Positions 11,812 to 32,182 of a DNA stretch of 46,306 bases are shown here, piece by piece. The position numbers and the translations under genes were made by a program. Location: positions 1 to 46,306 of the forward strand of contig JACPEW010000022.1 in assembly GCA_016183305.1 (NCBI GenBank), given 5' to 3'. This stretch comes from Candidatus Daviesbacteria bacterium. GTDB taxonomy: Bacteria > Patescibacteriota > Microgenomatia > Daviesbacterales > UBA10151. Position 1 is the stretch's first letter. Each line of letters begins with the position of its first letter. The notes below the pieces were generated by a model. That model did not search any database, was not told where the DNA came from, and saw only the letters and a list, made by a program, of their open reading frames with translations.

Positions 11812-13347
11812 TTAATGTCTAAAAGCCCTCCTCCCTGTAAATACCATTGGTATTCCTGCCTCATCAGCTGCATCAATTGATAACTGGTCCCTTAAAGACC
11901 CGCCTTGCTCAACAATTGCCCCTATTCCAGCTTTTGCTGCCATTTTTACACTATCATCAAATGGAAAAAAGCTATCGCTAATTAAAATCCCTCCTTTAGC
12001 AAAATCTCCTGCTTGTTCTAAAGCAATTTTAGTAGCGCCTACCCTGGATGTTTGCCCTGAACCAATTCCCCGGGTCATTGGGATATCTTTATCAATTACA
12101 ATCACTGCATTAGACCTGACAGCTTTAACACATTTAAATCCAAACTGCATTTGTTTTAGTTGCTCCTTTGTTGGTTTATTTTTAGTCACCATTTTCCAAG
12201 CAGCAAAGCTTTCTTTCACATTATCATCAAAGTCTTGCAAAAGTACAGCCCCTGCAAAATATTTTAAATCCCATTTCCCGTTTCTATTTAGGGGAATTTC
12301 TCCAAAAGTATAAACTCCCATGCTTTTGCGGACTTTTTTCAAAAGCTCCAAAGCATCAGGAGTTACATCTGGCACCGCAACAATATCAATATTTTCTTCT
12401 CTCTCATTTTTAAAAGTAGCCACATTTCTAGCAGCTTTTAAATCCATCACTTTATTCAAAACAATTACACCTCCAAAAGCAGACACAGGATCTGCCTCAA
12501 TGGCATAATATAAAGCTTCCCTGGCATCTTTGCCTGTTGCTATCCCGCAAGGGCTTAAGTGCTTAATCACACAAGCAGCAGGACCTTTAAATTGTCTTAC
12601 AGTTTCTATACCTGCCTGGATATCACCAATATTAGTTCCTGATAATTCCCTGCCCCAAAGATGTTTTAATTTAGTAAATGGTGAGTTGGTATTAGGTATT
12701 AAATATAAAGCACCTTGCTGGTGCGGGTTTTCCCCATAACGTAAGACATTAGTTCTTTTTAGAGGTACAGTTACTTCTTTAGGAAATTTTTCTTTTGAAA
12801 AAAAGTTACCTATTTGAGAATCATAAAAAGATAAATGATAAAAAGCTTTAGCCGCCAATTGTTGCCTTAACTCATCAGTAACTTCTTTGTTTTCCATAGC
12901 TCTTGCTATCTTCTCATAATCTCCTGGGTCTACCACCACTAAAACATTTTGGTGATTTTTAGCAGCAGCCCTAATCATAGTTGGACCTCCCACATCTATT
13001 GTTTCTATGCCAGGCTTTTGTTCGAATGGATAAAGATTACAAACCACCAGATCTATTTGAGGAACTTTTAAGTTATTAGCCTGCTCAAGATGTGATTTGT
13101 TTTGCCTATCATATAAAATCCCCGACTCTATTTGAAAACTAATAGTTTTCATCCTGCCATCAAAAGAATCCCTGGGGTTACCAGTAATTTCTTCAATTGG
13201 AGTAACTGCAATATTCTCTTTTTGTAAAACTTCAAATGTCCCACCAGTAGAAATAATTCTGTAGCCTAAATTTACTAAAACTTTAGCAAAATCCACAATT
13301 CCTAATTTATTAAAAACTGATAAAAGTGCAAATTTTTTGTCTTTCAT
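11812..13347 (-). CDS. purH: bifunctional AICAR transformylase / IMP cyclohydrolase
   Basis: MGS-like N-terminus (ALLSVFNKLGIVDFAKVL, ISTGGTFEVLQ, DGRMKTI) plus AICARFT domain (LRYGENPHQQGALY, IKHLSPCGIATG, GIGSGQTSRVGATKIALEQAGD). Confidence 0.95.
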   Translation of the reverse strand: MKDKKFALLSVFNKLGIVDFAKVLVNLGYRIISTGGTFEVLQKENIAVTPIEEITGNPRDSFDGRMKTISFQIESGILYDRQNKSHLEQANNLKVPQIDLVVCNLYPFEQKPGIETIDVGGPTMIRAAAKNHQNVLVVVDPGDYEKIARAMENKEVTDELRQQLAAKAFYHLSFYDSQIGNFFSKEKFPKEVTVPLKRTNVLRYGENPHQQGALYLIPNTNSPFTKLKHLWGRELSGTNIGDIQAGIETVRQFKGPAACVIKHLSPCGIATGKDAREALYYAIEADPVSAFGGVIVLNKVMDLKAARNVATFKNEREENIDIVAVPDVTPDALELLKKVRKSMGVYTFGEIPLNRNGKWDLKYFAGAVLLQDFDDNVKESFAAWKMVTKNKPTKEQLKQMQFGFKCVKAVRSNAVIVIDKDIPMTRGIGSGQTSRVGATKIALEQAGDFAKGGILISDSFFPFDDSVKMAAKAGIGAIVEQGGSLRDQLSIDAADEAGIPMVFTGRRAFRH

Positions 13348-13364
13348 GGTTTTTGATTATTGTG

Positions 13365-13403
13365 TCATTCTGGTAAGCGGGTCTTTGAGCGCATCCAGAA
13401 TGA
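13365..13403. repeat. intergenic inverted repeat between purH and purP
   Basis: TCATTCTGG (13365-13373) / CCAGAATGA (13395-13403), perfect 9-bp arms with a nested GCG/CGC. Confidence 0.75.
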
Positions 13404-13411
13404 TATAAATA

Positions 13412-14554
13412 TTATGTTAATATTTTTTCCAGTTCCCCTTTCCCTAGAGCTTCCTTTATTTCCATTGCTATTCTTTTTCCCATACTAATATTTTGTCCAT
13501 ATAAATATCCGCTATAAGGGGTAGCAAAAATTCCCGGGCTGCCTGGCATTCTGGGTGACACATCAAAAACAATAATTTCTTTTTTAGGAGGGCCGGCAGT
13601 AATCATTGTCTGTAAACCAAATGGACCAATTACTCCAGGTGGAATTAATTTTTGAGAAGCTTCTACGAATTTTTCTCCCATTGCATATGCATCCTCTAAT
13701 AAAGATTCTAAAACAGTTACAGCAATATGCCCTGCCTCCTCATACTTTACATCAATTTTCTTTACTAGTTCTTGCCCGTAAATACCTGGTAGTTTTGTTA
13801 ATCCTTCAATATTAGTTTGCCTTCTGGTATCAGTACCAATTAGTTCTACTTTACTACTAAGTGGTGAATAAAAGAAATTAAAGTTAACCTGAACCCCTAC
13901 TACAAACTCCTCTATGACACACTTTTCAATTTGTTCCAGGGTAAACTTGCCTAAACCTAATCCTTGAGTTACCCCAATTTGGTATTCTTCAAAAGACTGC
14001 GCAAAGAAAAAGGCTCTCTCAAAACCTCTTTCCTTTTCCAAAACTTTAACAATACAAAGCCTATCAATATCTTTAGGGTCTTTAAATTGTTTTGGATATC
14101 TAATATTTGCCTCATCTAATAAATCATATTGATTGGGTTTTACTCCTCTTTCTTCTGCTTTCAGTAAAAACTTATTACCAAACATTGGTACTTTAAACTT
14201 AGTTTCAATTGCATTGTAATCATTAATGTAGACTTCAAAAGACCTATGAGGAATAAAAATGCAATTTCTATCAAGCAGTTGTTTTTGAATTTCCGGTTTT
14301 AAAATACCAGAAAACTTTTCTAGTTCTATTACTTCATCAACAATTCCTAAATCTCCGTTGCTTTTGTAATATCTAGAATAAGTTTTATCCCTGCCTCTTT
14401 GTACCACTACTAAAGTCTTAAACCCCATGTCTTTAGCCCCTCTGCATACATCTAAAGCAGAATGACTCCCCAAGACTGCAATTGTTATATCTGAAAGTTT
14501 TGAGATTTTAGTTGTAGTTTTGAGTTTTGACATTTGAGTTTTGAATTTAATCAA
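13412..14554 (-). CDS. purP: PurP-like ATP-grasp ligase (formate-AICAR ligase family), divergent paralog
   Basis: ITIAVLGSHSALDVCRGAKDMGFKTLVV, VPMFGNKFLLKAEE, FYSPLSSKVELIGTDTRRQTNIEG, GPFGLQTM; several canonical motifs altered. Confidence 0.8.
   Translation of the reverse strand: MIKFKTQMSKLKTTTKISKLSDITIAVLGSHSALDVCRGAKDMGFKTLVVVQRGRDKTYSRYYKSNGDLGIVDEVIELEKFSGILKPEIQKQLLDRNCIFIPHRSFEVYINDYNAIETKFKVPMFGNKFLLKAEERGVKPNQYDLLDEANIRYPKQFKDPKDIDRLCIVKVLEKERGFERAFFFAQSFEEYQIGVTQGLGLGKFTLEQIEKCVIEEFVVGVQVNFNFFYSPLSSKVELIGTDTRRQTNIEGLTKLPGIYGQELVKKIDVKYEEAGHIAVTVLESLLEDAYAMGEKFVEASQKLIPPGVIGPFGLQTMITAGPPKKEIIVFDVSPRMPGSPGIFATPYSGYLYGQNISMGKRIAMEIKEALGKGELEKILT
14519..14546. repeat. heptamer array x4 at the purP (13412-14554) 5' end
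   Basis: TTTGAGT TTTGACA TTTGAGT TTTGAAT; encodes FKTQMSKLKT. Confidence 0.85.
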
Positions 14555-15563
14555 GTACCTCCTTTAGCTTATTTATTTTTACAGCATTTTTGATTTCTCT
14601 GGCAATCCTTCTTCCAGTACTCATTGGCTCATCATAAAGTAAATATGTATAAGGAGAACCATCTATAAAACAATTAGTTCCTGCCACAATTCTAGCTGAA
14701 ATTTCTATAGTATAAATTTCCTCTGTTGAAGTAATAATAGTTTCCAAACAAAACGGTCCAAATAAACCTTTAGGAGAAATTAGTTTCTTAGAAGTTTCTA
14801 TTACCCTTTCTGCCATGGAAATTGCCTCAGCCATAAGCGACTCCCTAATAGCCATTGGAATATTTGCAACAACTTCAAAAGATGGTTCAATATTTAAACC
14901 TTCTTGGTTTTTAGCAGGAATTCTGCCTAAAGAATCGACATTAGTTTCATACCTTTTATCAATACTCATCAGTTCTACTTTTTTTGTTAGAGGAGAATAG
15001 AAAAAATGGAAATAAACAGGAACTCCAACCACATATTCTTGAACCATAAATCTTTCCTCGTTATAACTCCGGAGTTTCTCATCAAATTCTTTTTGGTTCC
15101 TGGCGGTAAAATAACCCTTACCACCTGCAGCCCCATAAGATTTCACAATTACTGCCCGGTCAATCTTATCTCCTTTTCTAAAACGGTGTGGCACTTTAAT
15201 CCCTGCCTTTTCCATCCACTCCCTTTGCATTTTTCTGTTTTCTTCCCAATCCAAAACCTGTTTATTGCCAAAATAAGAAACCTTCATATTTTTATTTTGA
15301 TCCATACCAAGGTATGCCACAAAAGAACCATGAGGAATAATAATAGAATTTCTTTTTAATAATTCTTTTTCTAATTTGGGAAAATCTGTCCAGGATTTAA
15401 CTTCTAAAATTTCATCAATAAAATTATTGTAAGATTTATATAAAGGAATTCTTTGTGGAGTAACAACTACTGCAGTTTTAAAACCCTCGTCTTTTGCCCC
15501 TTTTAAAATTTGCAGGGCAGAGTGAGAACCCAAAGTTACAATTGTGTAGTTTGTAATTCCCAT
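14547..15563 (-). CDS. purP: formate-phosphoribosylaminoimidazolecarboxamide ligase (PurP), canonical-looking copy
   Basis: TLGSHSALQILKGAKDEGFKT, IIPHGSFVAYLG, YGAAGGKGYF, HFFYSPLTKKVELMSIDKRYETNVD, GLFGPFCLE, EISARIVAGTN. Confidence 0.9.
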   Translation of the reverse strand: MGITNYTIVTLGSHSALQILKGAKDEGFKTAVVVTPQRIPLYKSYNNFIDEILEVKSWTDFPKLEKELLKRNSIIIPHGSFVAYLGMDQNKNMKVSYFGNKQVLDWEENRKMQREWMEKAGIKVPHRFRKGDKIDRAVIVKSYGAAGGKGYFTARNQKEFDEKLRSYNEERFMVQEYVVGVPVYFHFFYSPLTKKVELMSIDKRYETNVDSLGRIPAKNQEGLNIEPSFEVVANIPMAIRESLMAEAISMAERVIETSKKLISPKGLFGPFCLETIITSTEEIYTIEISARIVAGTNCFIDGSPYTYLLYDEPMSTGRRIAREIKNAVKINKLKEVLD

Positions 15564-18438: not shown

Positions 18439-19220
18439 TTTGCTTCCTTAACAAACCTTACTATATTTTCAAACAATGGTAAACCCTGTGGCTTTTCTAC
18501 TGATCCTCTTCTCCAATTAGGATGTTGTTCAATCCTGACAAAACATTCCGGGTGTGGCATCATCCCTAAAATCCTGCCAGTAGTATCTGTTATTCCTACA
18601 ATTGCATTCAATGCGCCATTTGGATTATCAGGATATTTTTGAGTTGGTTGGCCTTTTTCATTCACATACCTGAATGCTACTAAATTATTTTCCTCTACTT
18701 TTTTCAAAGTTTTTTCATCAGTTAAAAACTTGCCTTCACCATGAGCAACCGGCAGCCAAATTATTTGATTATCTAAACCCGCAAAAAATGGGCTGTTATT
18801 TTTCTCATTAAGTTTCACTTTAATCCATCTGCATTCAAAATGTCCGGAATCATTATTAGTCAAAGTCACATCCATCTCTCCAACTTTCCTAAAAGGCAAC
18901 AGCCCAGTCCTTACCAAAACCTGGAAACCATTACAGACTCCTAGTATTACTGTATCCTTTCTTTCAATAAACTGTCTCATCCCGTTACCTAAAAAAGCAG
19001 TTAACTCTATTGCTAAGATTTTTCCTGAGACAATATCATCACCATAAGCAAACCCGCCTGGTAAAGCCAAGACTTGATAATCTTTCATTTTTCTCTGACC
19101 GCTCCTTAAAAGGTTAACATGGACCACTTCAGGATCCCCACCTGCTGCTTTAAAAGCATAAGCCATTTCTGCGTCTCTGTTTGTCCCATCTGCTTTTAGT
19201 ACTAATACTTTAGGTTTCAT
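18432..19220 (-). CDS. purQ: phosphoribosylformylglycinamidine synthase, glutaminase subunit
   Basis: LALPGGFAYGDD, ILGVCNGFQVLVRTGLLP, GMMPHPE. Confidence 0.95.
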   Translation of the reverse strand: MKPKVLVLKADGTNRDAEMAYAFKAAGGDPEVVHVNLLRSGQRKMKDYQVLALPGGFAYGDDIVSGKILAIELTAFLGNGMRQFIERKDTVILGVCNGFQVLVRTGLLPFRKVGEMDVTLTNNDSGHFECRWIKVKLNEKNNSPFFAGLDNQIIWLPVAHGEGKFLTDEKTLKKVEENNLVAFRYVNEKGQPTQKYPDNPNGALNAIVGITDTTGRILGMMPHPECFVRIEQHPNWRRGSVEKPQGLPLFENIVRFVKEAKW

Positions 19221-21933
19221 GAAAAAGCCTCCTCATTGGCTTCTGCCAAGTTTTCTTCAGATCCCTAACCGCAACATTAAATAATTTATCCAAATTTATC
19301 ATTGCTTCTTCTTGTGTTTTACCTAAAATCTTAAATGGCATTTTGGAAAAAAGTTGCTTGGCTACTTGCTCATCTTTTACCTCAACAATAAAAGTGCCTG
19401 CTGTTTCATTAAATAAGGATTCCACCTGGGAGGTGGGCTTTGACACCTCCCAGGTGTCTATGACTACCCCCATATTACCTCCAACACACATCTCAAAAAT
19501 AGCAGTAATCACTCCTCCTTCTGACACATCATGGCAGGATAAAATTTTATTCTTTTGGATACCTTGATAAATTGCCTCAAAAGTTTTTGGTAATAATTTA
19601 AGGTCCACTTTAGGAACAACATTTTTGTTATCAACTTTTCCCACTAAAACAATTGTTGATCCAGTTTTCTTAAAATCAGCTGTTACAGTCTTAGAAGCAT
19701 CAGGAATTTTCCCAAAAACAGACATACATAAAGTAGGAGGAATTTTAATAATAGTCCCATCGCTGCCTCTGTATGTTGAGGATAAACTGTCTTTTCCGGA
19801 AATCACCGGGATTTTAAAAGCTTTCATTAAATCCACAACTGCATCAACCATCTGGTCTGTTGCCCAAATAGTTTCCTCATCAGGAAATGGGCAAATATAA
19901 TTATTTATTAAAGAGGCATTTTTATAATCCCCTCCTACTGCCACAAAATTTGATAAGGCCTCTGCTCCTGCCCAAATACTACCCCAGTATGGATCAATAT
20001 TATTAAAGCTGGGATTTAATCCATGCGAAATTACAACCCCATATTTTTTATCTAAAAAAGGCCTTAAAACTGGTGAATCATTTGGACCATCAAGGCTTAC
20101 ACCAGAAAAGGGTTGCAAATCATTTGTACCCTGCACCGAATGGTCGTACATTCTAACAATTGGCTCTTTTGAACAAACATTTCCATCTGAAACAATTTTG
20201 TTAATCTCCTTTATCCACTCTTTTTCATTTTTTGGCACAGATCCTTCGACTCGCTTCGCTCGCTCAGGATGACTTTTAATATTTTTAGCAATGAGGATCT
20301 TTTTTGGTAAGCCATGATGTAGGAACTCCATATCTAAATCACATACAACTTTATTATTAAAAGTCACTTTTAATTTTTTACTGTCATCAAATTCTCCAAG
20401 TAGCGCATATTCAACGTTGTATTTTTTACAGATTAACTCAAATGCTTTGAGATTCTTCCTTTCTAAAACTACAACCATTCTTTCCTGCGACTCTGAAACC
20501 CAAATTTCCCAGGGAGCCAAGCCATGATACTTTAGCGGAGCTTTACTCATATCCACACTTACTCCTAATTCTTCTCCAATCTCTCCAACTGCAGAAGAAA
20601 ATCCTCCCCCTCCAACATCTTGTATCAATCTAATCAAACCTTCATCTCTTGCCTCAAGCAAAGCATCAAACATTCTTTTCTCTTCAATGGCATTGCCAAT
20701 TTGTACAGCTGAAGCATTAACTTCTTTTGTTTTATCAGTCATTTCTCCGGAAGAAAAAGTAGCCCCGTGAATACCATCCCTGCCTGTCCTGCCACCTACA
20801 ACAATTATTAAATCACCTTTTTCTGGTTTATCTTTTTTTGCATATTTTTTAGGTAATATTCCATATGCCCCAACAATTACTGAAGGCCTTGCCCGGAAAT
20901 TTTGATGGAAATGAACTGACCCATTATTAGTAGGAATTCCCATTCTATTCCCATAATCCCTGACGCCTTCCACCACTCTTTTTAATAAGTACTTTGGAGG
21001 CAAACAACCAGCTGGTAAATCTTTATCCTTTAAATCAAGCGGAGCAAAACAGAATATATCTGTGGAAGCAATATTTTTAGCTCCTTTGCCTGTTCCAGCA
21101 ATATCCCTAAATACTCCACCAGACCCAGTCATTGCCCCTCCATATGGTTCTATAGCAGACGGAGCATTATGGGTTTCTACCTTACCGCAAATAGCAAAGC
21201 CGTCATAAAAATCCATCACCCCGGAATTATCATCAAAAGCAGAAACAATATTTTTATTATGCTTTAAGGCTTCTTTTTTAATCCTTTTAATTAAAGGTTC
21301 TTTCTTTTTTCCATCAACTATTAAACCTGCTTTAAATGTTTTATGTCCTGAGTGTTCGCTCCAGGTTTGAGCTAAAGTTTCAAGTTCTAAATCTGTTGGA
21401 TCTTTCTCCATTTTTTGGAAGTATTTTTGAATTGTTCTCATTTCTTCCAAATTAAGGAAAAGCTTATCTTTCGACAACTCCATTAATTCTTCATCACTAC
21501 AATTTCTAATAGGGATAATTTTTGTCTTACCTGTTTTTCCTTCCAAAATTAAAGTTTTTGGTTCTTCTGTTACTATATGTTCTGTCAAAGGGTTAAAGAT
21601 GGGTGTATTGTTTGTATATTCTACAGAAGTATCTGCAGCTAAAAGTTTTATACCCAAATCTGAGGCAGCTTTCATAATTGATGCAACTTCAGGATTCATT
21701 ACCCCAGGTTTATAAGAAATCTCAACTGTAGTTACACCTCCCAAGCCACCTGGGGGGTGGGCTTTGACTCCCCCCAGGTGTGTGATTGGCTGATTTATGC
21801 TATATTTTTGGTTTATTTTTTCAGCCAGTAATTTCTCCGCCAAAATCTTAGCTTCTTTTTCAGATATACCCTCAAGCCGGTAAACTTTAATATTTTGTTG
21901 TCCGCTTGTCTGCACTCTGACTTTTTGAATCAT
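19210..21933 (-). CDS. purL: phosphoribosylformylglycinamidine synthase II with N-terminal PurS-like region
   Basis: WSEHSGHKTFK, KVETHNAPSAIEPYGGAMTGSGGVFRDI, NNGSVHFH, QDVGGGGFSSAVGEIGEELGV, ISGKDSLSS, CHDVSEGG. Confidence 0.96.
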   Translation of the reverse strand: MIQKVRVQTSGQQNIKVYRLEGISEKEAKILAEKLLAEKINQKYSINQPITHLGGVKAHPPGGLGGVTTVEISYKPGVMNPEVASIMKAASDLGIKLLAADTSVEYTNNTPIFNPLTEHIVTEEPKTLILEGKTGKTKIIPIRNCSDEELMELSKDKLFLNLEEMRTIQKYFQKMEKDPTDLELETLAQTWSEHSGHKTFKAGLIVDGKKKEPLIKRIKKEALKHNKNIVSAFDDNSGVMDFYDGFAICGKVETHNAPSAIEPYGGAMTGSGGVFRDIAGTGKGAKNIASTDIFCFAPLDLKDKDLPAGCLPPKYLLKRVVEGVRDYGNRMGIPTNNGSVHFHQNFRARPSVIVGAYGILPKKYAKKDKPEKGDLIIVVGGRTGRDGIHGATFSSGEMTDKTKEVNASAVQIGNAIEEKRMFDALLEARDEGLIRLIQDVGGGGFSSAVGEIGEELGVSVDMSKAPLKYHGLAPWEIWVSESQERMVVVLERKNLKAFELICKKYNVEYALLGEFDDSKKLKVTFNNKVVCDLDMEFLHHGLPKKILIAKNIKSHPERAKRVEGSVPKNEKEWIKEINKIVSDGNVCSKEPIVRMYDHSVQGTNDLQPFSGVSLDGPNDSPVLRPFLDKKYGVVISHGLNPSFNNIDPYWGSIWAGAEALSNFVAVGGDYKNASLINNYICPFPDEETIWATDQMVDAVVDLMKAFKIPVISGKDSLSSTYRGSDGTIIKIPPTLCMSVFGKIPDASKTVTADFKKTGSTIVLVGKVDNKNVVPKVDLKLLPKTFEAIYQGIQKNKILSCHDVSEGGVITAIFEMCVGGNMGVVIDTWEVSKPTSQVESLFNETAGTFIVEVKDEQVAKQLFSKMPFKILGKTQEEAMINLDKLFNVAVRDLKKTWQKPMRRLFHET
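19423..19456. repeat. 34-nt palindromic element inside purL (copy 1)
   Basis: CACCTGGGAGGTG-GGCTTTGA-CACCTCCCAGGTG: perfect 13-bp arms with an 8-nt loop. Confidence 0.9.
20240..20273. repeat. ATCCT...AGGAT palindromic element inside purL
   Basis: GATCCTTCGACTCGCTTCGCTCGCTCAGGATGAC; encodes SHPERAKRVEGS in the purL frame. Confidence 0.8.
21747..21780. repeat. 34-nt palindromic element inside purL (copy 2)
   Basis: CACCTGGGGGG-TGGGCTTTGACT-CCCCCCAGGTG: perfect 11-bp arms; shares the core GGTGGGCTTTGAC and total length with copy 1. Confidence 0.9.
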
Positions 21934-21938
21934 ATTTT

Positions 21939-23897
21939 TTAACTCTTAACTCTCTCTATATCCCTCCAGCCAATATCTTTCCTATAATGTAAATTATCTC
22001 CCTTAATATTAATTAACCTCATTGCCTGGTACGCTTTTTCCCTGGCTTCCAAAATATCCTTTCCTTCAGCTACTAAGTGAAATATTCTACCACCGTTTAC
22101 TAAATATTTATTATTAGATTTTTTAATCCCTGCCCCATAAATAGTTATGCCTTCTTGTTTTATTGCTTTATCTAATCCCAAAATTTGTTTATCCCTTACT
22201 TTTGAATAATCACCAGGATACCCTTTTGCAGCACCAGCAATACTAATTCTTATTTTAGTATCAACTTTTATTTTTAATTTATCTAGTTTAGTCTGGACAA
22301 CTTTTTCTGCTATGTCTAAATAATCAGTTTGAATACTTGGTAAAATCACTTCAGCTTCAGGGTCGCCCCATCTGGCATTAAATTCGATGATAAAAACTTT
22401 TCCATCAACTACAATTCCACCCAAATATAACACTCCCTCATAAAACCTATTTTCTTTTTTTAATCCATTAATTGTTTTTTTAAATATTTTTGATATTTGA
22501 TCTTTGATTTTTGATATTACCATCGGGTTACTAACACATCCCATCCCACCTGTATTTGGGCCTTTATCACCATCATTAACTCTTTTATGATCTTGAGCAT
22601 ATCCTACTATTTGAAAATTATCTCCATCACAAACAGCAAATGCAGAAAATTCCTCTCCCATTAACCACTCTTCTAGTAAATAAGTTTTTCCAGCTAACCC
22701 AAACCTCTCCATTTCCTTAATAGCAGCAGTTGTCTCATCTAAATTAGCAGCAGGAATAACTCCTTTACCTTCAGCTAAACCAGCTGCCTTAACAAACCAT
22801 TTGTTATTAGGATTTTTCTTCGCAAACTCTATTCCAGCTTTTTCTGACTTAAATATTTGGTACTTGGGATTTGGTACTTGGTACTTTTGCATGAATTTTC
22901 TTGCCCAAGCTTTATCCCATTCAATTTGCCCAGCTTTCTTAGTTGGACCAACAACAGTTATTTTCTTTTTAAGCAACTCATCCACCAGTCCTACTGCTAC
23001 TGCATTATCTTGGGCAACATCCACCAAATCCACTTTTTCTTTTTGGCAAATTTCTATAATCTCTTTAACACTAGTAGTTTTTAAATGGGGGTAAGTAATA
23101 ACTTGTTTTTGAGTATTAATCTGCATTAAATCATTACCAGGCACCGCTAAAATTTTACCTACTTTGGGAGATTGTGCATATTTATCAACTAATGCTGCCC
23201 CTCTTCCACCTCCATCAATTATTAAGATAGTTTTTAGATCCTTCGCTTCACCCCAAGGGTACTTGCCACTTCGTGGTGGCGCGCTCAGGATAACACTTCG
23301 TGTCAGTTTAGCTAATACCTCTACATATAGTTTATTCTCTTTTACTTTTAATCTTTTATATAAAGATTCTACTGTATCTCCTTTTCTAATTTTCTCAAAA
23401 CACCTTCCTAAAACTGGTCCAAAATCAAACTCATGTGTTAAAAAATGAACTGAAGAACCAGCATAGCTAGACTTATTATCTAGAAAGTTTTGAATCGCTA
23501 AATCAGCTAATTTCCCTTTATTCCAAAGCCCCAAACTTTTATCTGGATTTCTTACTATCCCTTCTAAACTGTCTGGTATTAGCCCGGGATGTAAGTTTAG
23601 AATTTTATCCGGAAAAGTATCAATGACTTCTGAAACAATAATCTGTTTCCATCCAGCCAAACAAATATATCCTACATTTAACTTCTTTAAAACTTCTAAT
23701 AGTTCTTCTTTTTCAGGGACTATCTTAACAGGAAGTTTGTGCTTTCTGGCTCTTTCCAGTCCAAGAGCCTCAGATGTATCAGCAATAACTGCTACCAAAT
23801 CCGCCTGAATTTTTCCTGACTCCACCCCGTCAATGATTGCTTGGAAATTTGTGCCAGTTCCTTTATTAGAAATTAAAACAGCTAACCTACACATCAT
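21939..23897 (-). CDS. fused GAR transformylase (PurN) - GAR synthetase (PurD)
   Basis: N-terminus RLAVLISNKGTGTNFQAIID / KILNLHPGLIPDS / HFLTHEFDFGPVLGR (PurN). C-terminus ILIIDGGGRGAALV / AAGLAEGKGVIPA / DHKRVNDGDKGPNTGGMGCVSNPMV / EFNARWGDPEAEVILP (PurD). One uninterrupted 652 aa ORF. Confidence 0.93.
   Translation of the reverse strand: MMCRLAVLISNKGTGTNFQAIIDGVESGKIQADLVAVIADTSEALGLERARKHKLPVKIVPEKEELLEVLKKLNVGYICLAGWKQIIVSEVIDTFPDKILNLHPGLIPDSLEGIVRNPDKSLGLWNKGKLADLAIQNFLDNKSSYAGSSVHFLTHEFDFGPVLGRCFEKIRKGDTVESLYKRLKVKENKLYVEVLAKLTRSVILSAPPRSGKYPWGEAKDLKTILIIDGGGRGAALVDKYAQSPKVGKILAVPGNDLMQINTQKQVITYPHLKTTSVKEIIEICQKEKVDLVDVAQDNAVAVGLVDELLKKKITVVGPTKKAGQIEWDKAWARKFMQKYQVPNPKYQIFKSEKAGIEFAKKNPNNKWFVKAAGLAEGKGVIPAANLDETTAAIKEMERFGLAGKTYLLEEWLMGEEFSAFAVCDGDNFQIVGYAQDHKRVNDGDKGPNTGGMGCVSNPMVISKIKDQISKIFKKTINGLKKENRFYEGVLYLGGIVVDGKVFIIEFNARWGDPEAEVILPSIQTDYLDIAEKVVQTKLDKLKIKVDTKIRISIAGAAKGYPGDYSKVRDKQILGLDKAIKQEGITIYGAGIKKSNNKYLVNGGRIFHLVAEGKDILEAREKAYQAMRLINIKGDNLHYRKDIGWRDIERVKS
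22488..22515. repeat. heptamer array x4 inside the purD part
   Basis: TTTTGAT ATTTGAT CTTTGAT TTTTGAT. Confidence 0.75.
22857..22884. repeat. heptamer array x4 inside the purD part
   Basis: TTGGTAC TTGGGAT TTGGTAC TTGGTAC. Confidence 0.85.
23238..23303. repeat. compound palindromic element at the purN-purD junction
   Basis: ATCCT (23238) ... AGGAT (23287) enclosing CAAG-GGTA-CTTG and GCCAC-TTCGTG-GTGGC, followed by ACAC-TTC-GTGT. Confidence 0.8.
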
Positions 23898-31701: not shown

Positions 31702-32109
31702 CTATCCTCCTACCCCTCTTTTAATTTCAGCCTTTCCAGCATAAACTATTGCTGGATTAATTGGTTGTTTTTTCTTTTCTTCTTTTTCCATTTCAGCTAC
31801 TTGCTCCTCTTGTTGCTGAGCTTGCAATCTTTGCTGCTCTTTTTGTTTATTTTCCATTCTGACTTTTTGTTGAGCTACTGTCAAATCACTTAACCATCTT
31901 CTGGTATAAGCAAGTTGTTTTTGTCTGTCTATTTCTTTTTGCTGGTCTTCTTGTTGTTTTTGTTGGAGTTGTTGAGGAGTAAGTTGGGGTGATGTGGCAG
32001 ACTGGATCCCTTGCTCAATAGCTTCTCCTACTGAGTCTTTTATATCCTGTACTACTTCTCCACCTGTTTGTTCTATCTCATCCTGAAATTTTCCAATTAC
32101 ATTAGCCAT
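31702..32109 (-). CDS. Gln-rich coiled-coil protein of unknown function
   Basis: 135 aa; PQQLQQKQQEDQQKEIDRQKQ ... KEQQRLQAQQQEEQVAEMEKEEKKK. Confidence 0.65.
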   Translation of the reverse strand: MANVIGKFQDEIEQTGGEVVQDIKDSVGEAIEQGIQSATSPQLTPQQLQQKQQEDQQKEIDRQKQLAYTRRWLSDLTVAQQKVRMENKQKEQQRLQAQQQEEQVAEMEKEEKKKQPINPAIVYAGKAEIKRGVGG

Positions 32110-32130
32110 AAATATATTCTAGCACAAGCT

Positions 32131-32179
32131 CACCCCGGAGGTGAAGCTAAGCTGTCGCCTGGATCACACCTCCGGGGTG
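32131..32179. repeat. intergenic palindromic element related to the purL 34-nt palindromes
   Basis: CACCCCGGAGGTG (32131-32143) and CACCTCCGGGGTG (32167-32179), perfect 13-bp arms, 23-nt loop, no T-run. Confidence 0.85.
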
Positions 32180-32182
32180 TGG

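Follow-up and report, generated by a model that had tools for sequence, protein, structure and literature searches.

Palindromes within coding genes have been portrayed as something peculiar to Rickettsia, apart from intragenic REPs scattered among other organisms, and the Rickettsia palindromic elements (RPEs) were reportedly described by Ogata and colleagues in 2000. RPEs, which have been reviewed (PMC2229807; PMC10969869), are 105–146 bp long (PMC2229807), are reported to lose their repeat identity over time (PMC6649704), and in R. conorii were reported with CGTC at one end (PMC3733652). REP superfamilies with a GTAG or a CGTC tag consist of hairpins of 20–40 bp at moderate copy number, some of them intragenic; the CGTC REPs have the CGTC tag, a stem of 8–9 bp and a loop of 4–5 bp, and in recB of Xanthomonas REPs are found at similar sites in related genes (PMC3733652). 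MITEs such as Correia/NEMIS, RUP and ERIC measure about 100–200 bp and have target duplications of the TA type (PMC2229807). In mitochondria of Nematomorpha, perfect inverted repeats of up to 284 bp lie in coding genes and are apparently actively maintained (PMC6649704).

Here we describe a 34-nt hairpin, type A, which works like the RPEs but is apparently a different, undescribed family. It was found in a 46,306-nt stretch of DNA from a Candidatus Daviesbacteria draft genome, hereafter the window, where two copies lie in purL together with a third palindrome. The features discussed below are as follows:

19210..21933, minus strand: purL (FGAM synthase), host of three inserts; a 907-aa ORF, intact and open throughout
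19423..19456, minus strand: type A hairpin at PurL site 3, CACCTGGGAGGTG-GGCTTTGA-CACCTCCCAGGTG, peptide DTWEVSKPTSQV
20241..20270, minus strand: REP-like palindrome at PurL site 2, sequence GTCATCCTGAGCGAGCGAAGCGAGTCGAAGGATC, peptide SHPERAKRVEGS, of a different family from type A
21735..21746, minus strand: CACCTCCCAAGC, beside the site 1 copy, which resembles the arms and may be the leftover arm of an older hairpin
21747..21780, minus strand: type A hairpin at PurL site 1, CACCTGGGGGG-TGGGCTTTGACT-CCCCCCAGGTG, peptide HLGGVKAHPPGG
32131..32179, strand unassigned: type B hairpin with a 23-nt loop and 13-bp arms CACCCCGGAGGTG/CACCTCCGGGGTG, lying in the spacer that separates recR from the ORF at 31702–32109

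The purL product contains AIRS, AIRS_C and FGAR-AT linker domains (Pfam) and can be aligned with the solved PurL structures 3viu and 3d54. By PurL, the closest named relatives are Daviesbacteria and Levybacteria (Microgenomates). The ORF translates through both type A hairpins to give DTWEVSKPTSQVES and THLGGVKAHPPGGLGG, and the coordinates, frame and peptides that a first-pass annotation had assigned to these two 34-nt palindromes agree with both sequence and ORF. Both copies are in sense orientation. The site 1 copy is read in the CAC CTG frame and scored 60.9 bits with a covariance model of the element; the site 3 copy is read in the xxC ACC frame, scored 58.2 bits, has a stem of 13 bp instead of the usual 11, and its loop TGTCAAAGCCCA is one substitution away from AGTCAAAGCCCA. 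Folded as RNA, they reach -24.7 kcal/mol (z -3.4) and -29.3 kcal/mol (z -7.3), respectively.

The same annotation had counted three palindromes in frame in purL. All three are indeed there, but they fall into two unrelated families, and the idea that they are one element was rejected. The palindrome at 20241–20270, which runs from ATCCT (20241–20245) to AGGAT (20266–20270), differs from type A in sequence, in folding (z -0.5 as RNA) and in copy number, being single in the window's genome even with up to 3 mismatches allowed. It is scattered through genomes of the taxonomic family (23 of 43), and in one of them (G043) PurL site 2 holds this family at the same position and in the same frame. With its sequence GTCATCCT...AGGATC it resembles REPs of the CGTC kind (PMC3733652), although its tag is AGTC, its outer stem has 5 bp and its fold is weak. 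Across G000, G003, G014, G033, G040 and G043, PurL site 2 is occupied by unrelated CGTC-like palindromes that differ by species (GTCATCCT.., CGTCATTCTGA.., CGTCATTCCTGCG..). An intergenic palindrome, GTCATTCTGG...CCAGAATGA, at 13360–13408 in the window, 5' of a purH-like gene, also resembles CGTC-like repeats. The neighbouring genes form an unusual mixture of purine enzymes: at 11812–15563 two tandem DUF1246/DUF1297 proteins adjoin a PurH-like AICARFT/IMPCHase, these two domains being the pair found in archaeal-type PurP. At 21939–23897, a PurN-like formyltransferase domain is fused with the domains of GAR synthetase (PurD).

Type A consists of an 11-bp GC-rich stem of the pattern CACCT-NNN-AGG / CCT-NNN-AGGTG and a near-invariant 12-nt loop, AGTCAAAGCCCA. 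The motif GGTGGGCTTTGA occurred 6 times in the 940-kb draft genome, in every case forming the loop of a hairpin with an 11-bp stem; its reversed control gave 0 matches in the same genome. All six copies are in frame and inside long ORFs, namely purL (two copies), aspS, and genes for HMG-CoA reductase, MurB and a repeat-rich surface-type protein. Of these hosts, purL was identified through Pfam and AspRS through a PDB search; the other three names, as well as TlyA, TsaD, TrpRS and CCA-adding enzyme in other genomes, are our presumed assignments from recognizing the sequences. The covariance model recovered exactly these six copies in the window's genome at 58–62 bits, other matches there reaching at most 33 bits, including the opposite-strand readings of the six hairpins (at most 32 bits). 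Its only extras were two relatives with longer loops, one at 32130–32180 in the window and one in a helicase-like gene. Rfam gave no match above gathering score; the only one, mir-3155, was at chance level (24.4 vs 70 bits). The search motif leaves nine pairs of the stem free; among 94 motif hits these were Watson-Crick in 812 of 846 cases, compared with a mean of 601 and a maximum of 631 when stem partners were shuffled. Since pairing lies so far above the shuffles despite 31 different outer arms, changes in one stem arm are matched in the other, against a constant loop.

The window's type B hairpin, located 3' of recR, has CACC...GGTG arms as in type A. Further type B loci are found in the window's own genome (C28:45850-45900) and at L103:1623-1673, L103:3822-3872 and L099:3753-3803, and homologous elements occur in purL, aspS and the helicase-like gene in this genome and its relatives. 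A further purL site is taken by type B in G013 and G029; in G032 it carries a relative of type B. Two unrelated genes, those for TlyA (L036, L030) and PurL (L107), contain a third type, which is longer (CACCTCGGATGGTGGCAGGCT...GAAGCCATGACTCC...).

Within the taxonomic family, 24 of 45 genomes had the type A motif when at most 1 mismatch was allowed; carriers usually have 1–12 copies each, and the reversed control was found in 0. Further genomic copies, whose absence would have counted against the first-pass annotation, are therefore many. In the class outside the family, the exact motif was detected in 4 of about 330 Microgenomatia genomes (G133, G213, G226, G342), G213 having 8 copies, and in the phylum outside the class it was detected in 2 of about 263 (G508, G604). 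Viral contigs were considered as carriers and dismissed, as their 5 loop matches, none with a complete hairpin, are due to chance.

We then related the copies to the reading frames of their hosts. Sixty-eight of 81 copies (84%) lie in ORFs of at least 150 aa, compared with 78% of control positions; this gives no preference for genes over intergenic DNA, and it means that type A is not excluded from genes. Classical REPs are mostly excluded from them. The copies in such ORFs are distributed over the frames as 23 sense2, 22 antisense2, 16 sense0, 6 sense1, 1 antisense1 and 0 antisense0, so that five of the six possible frames are used, and the one left out, antisense0, contains a TGA stop. This uneven use favours hydrophilic peptides such as TSEESKPTSEV, TSEVGFDSSEV and HLEGVKAHLRG. 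The sense orientation of all copies in the window's genome was rejected as a general rule (47 sense and 32 antisense overall). As RNA, type A hairpins reach -19 to -29 kcal/mol, and stable hairpins within genes would suit a segment that is skipped or removed, whether intron-like, intein-like or by translational bypassing as in some yeast mitochondria. Such a segment would have no need to keep the frame, yet every copy in a long ORF keeps the frame without a stop, the frame with the TGA being avoided altogether, and we regard this explanation as highly improbable.

A 34-nt hairpin requires two further nucleotides (modulo 3) for a net gain in frame. TC was present at both flanks in 13 of 90 copies (odds ratio 7.5, p=6e-4, relative to independence), and the association was found in the sense2 and antisense2 classes, in which different residues are encoded, and in none of the other frames. 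Any matching flanking dinucleotide was seen in 20 of 90 copies (11.6 expected), with no excess of longer target duplications at 3 nt or more. It is thus supported, but not proven, that a copy arrives as 36 nt, that is, 34 nt plus a repeated TC, equal to 12 codons. The presence of a 2-nt direct repeat in a minority of copies only weighs against this model, and the exact gain of 36 nt is not readable from the alignments because empty sites vary in length among themselves.

Comparison between species revealed occupied and empty states of the same positions. Across 19 PurL sequences, a site may be empty or hold a type A copy, a different palindrome or a remnant. Site 1 is occupied in G040, G041 and G033 by copies with other stems or in another frame and is empty in G039, G037, G043 and others, and site 3 is filled differently or empty in relatives, so the encoded peptides are absent or replaced at the same site rather than conserved. 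The OB-fold loop of AspRS behaves likewise: only some species have a copy there, stems and frames vary among these copies, and the solved Thermus enzyme 1n9w has a short loop at this position. In MurB, the copies of two genomes share a site but have their loops in opposite orientations (sense in G000, antisense in G028). Because the PurL and AspRS loops vary in this way, with different stems, frames and orientations, other palindromes or nothing at all, type A copies are insertions. They can also be hit themselves: in purL of G014 (L105) a 24-nt palindrome of another family, TCCCTCGACTTCGCTCGGGACAAG, is nested in the type A loop with the frame kept, and in pfkB-like genes (L046, L070) a new copy overlaps an old one. 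These results support the view that copies adopt length-tolerant positions of unrelated housekeeping genes. The earlier placement of the inserts in surface loops is better called putative, being suggested by alignment gaps, from which the PurL placement is drawn, and by the short loop of the solved AspRS. That the sites are length-variable in relatives would also fit ordinary lineage-specific loop variation, with palindromy that is coincidental or made by local slippage. This account is refuted by pairing far above that of the shuffles and by a 12-nt loop that recurs unchanged across genera and in genes unrelated to one another, and we give it practically no credence.

Shared sites showed a different aspect of the element. 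At the same position, frame and orientation and with a like stem, elements were identical at 32–34 of 34 nucleotides, while their flanks were 64–76% identical. Among codons for the same amino acid, 66 of 66 were identical inside elements compared with 493 of 975 in flanks, the former value being inflated, since detection by the loop motif favours conserved copies and the pairs were picked for identical or almost identical stems; over all same-site pairs it was about 108 of 115. The TlyA copies of three species were identical at 34 of 34 nucleotides with flanks at 68–74%, and share the uncommon TTCCAGG stem at the same codon, where two other genera have truncated remnants of the same arm. The remnants and the shared uncommon stem argue for descent. 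At the shared site of the CCA-adding enzyme, the only two differences amount to one compensatory pair change. Such near-absence of synonymous change is unlike what is expected of freely decaying selfish DNA. Selection on the hairpin, templated correction or re-insertion may each account for this conservation.

The codon identity, the TlyA copies with their remnants and the compensatory change would all be in line with a functional hairpin, in which the host selects on DNA or RNA structure and the element is now a dispersed cis-element and not a parasite; it might serve as a protein-binding site, an mRNA folding signal or a ribosome-pausing signal. However, the copies follow no positional rule, occurring in both orientations, in five frames and in genes unrelated to each other; many orthologues are without them, and the codon identity is in part an effect of how pairs were found. 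We therefore judge a host-selected cis-element to be rather unlikely. Alternatively, identity at shared sites may come from independent re-insertion, that is, repeated recent arrivals of circulating elements in tolerant loops, which is really a sub-hypothesis of a mobile repeat. From species to species, one and the same loop does differ in the stem, frame and palindrome family that it holds, and the distribution among genomes is patchy, but the TlyA evidence for descent speaks against it, and we consider it very unlikely.

Taken together, we think it probable that type A is a small non-autonomous mobile repeat which is spreading in Daviesbacteria-like genomes and is tolerated inside genes. The element is dispersed and palindromic, its stems covary, related species differ in whether a given site holds a copy, and the host genes read through it in frame. 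We infer that a trans-acting recombinase or transposase would recognise the loop and/or the single-stranded hairpin. Insertion of 36 nt would add 12 stop-free, mostly hydrophilic codons at positions that already vary in length, and insertions that break the frame or disrupt the core would be lost by selection. Once a copy is in place, its pairing and sequence may be upheld because the hairpin is under selection, because new copies keep arriving at that site or because changes are corrected from a template. RAYT-type genes are common (39 of 43 genomes), and 20 inspected Y1_Tnp (RAYT-type) genes from six genomes had no type A copy closer than about 1.3 kb. As a separate observation, a perfect hairpin, ACTACCTTCCCACAT/ATGTGGGAAGGTAGT, adjoins a RAYT-like gene of the window's own genome (L210:1020-1053), with GTAG near its end, and possibly the two make up a REPtron in CPR.

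Of the described systems, RPEs are the closest in behaviour. Like them, type A palindromes are dispersed, in frame and stop-free in many unrelated protein genes, translated, tolerated, and accompanied by other families in one genome, so the likeness to RPEs proposed by the first-pass annotation holds for these features. It does not extend to identity: at 34 nt and with ends CACC/GGTG, type A is set apart by size from RPEs as described and by end tag from those of R. conorii. It also differs from RPEs in its near-invariant loop, its covarying stems, the scarcity of synonymous change at shared sites, and its host, the CPR Microgenomates. With REPs it has in common a short hairpin, moderate copy number and some intragenic copies, but neither the GTAG nor the CGTC tag is present, the fixed part is the 12-nt loop, and no flanking RAYT was seen. 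As in MITEs, the element is small and non-autonomous, has inverted repeats and is fused to ORFs, whereas its size and the possible TC repeat are unlike theirs. It resembles the coding palindromes of Nematomorpha in its location in coding genes and its apparent maintenance, and differs from those long palindromes in being one short dispersed unit. To our knowledge, the latter share no short repeated unit. Descriptions of such elements in CPR bacteria, of which the first-pass annotation knew none, were not found in the open-access literature either, in a search that was not exhaustive.

In summary, our results suggest that streamlined CPR genomes would offer a second, independent and comparative system for studying how selfish DNA adds peptides to conserved proteins. 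The same loops of PurL, AspRS, TsaD, TlyA and MurB are recurrent hosts, and with many species pairs per site one can ask directly how long an insertion is, how its frame is chosen, whether its orientation flips and how it decays. For elements of this kind, apparent maintenance at the nucleotide level is unexpected. We put forward only tentatively, as something less than an even prospect, that type A is a new family of translated hairpins and that some active process preserves their nucleotide sequence within essential genes, the stems changing by compensation and shared sites staying almost free of synonymous change at distances where about half of the same-residue codons in the flanks differ. 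If this is true, either the host uses the hairpin, or unknown machinery re-templates it.
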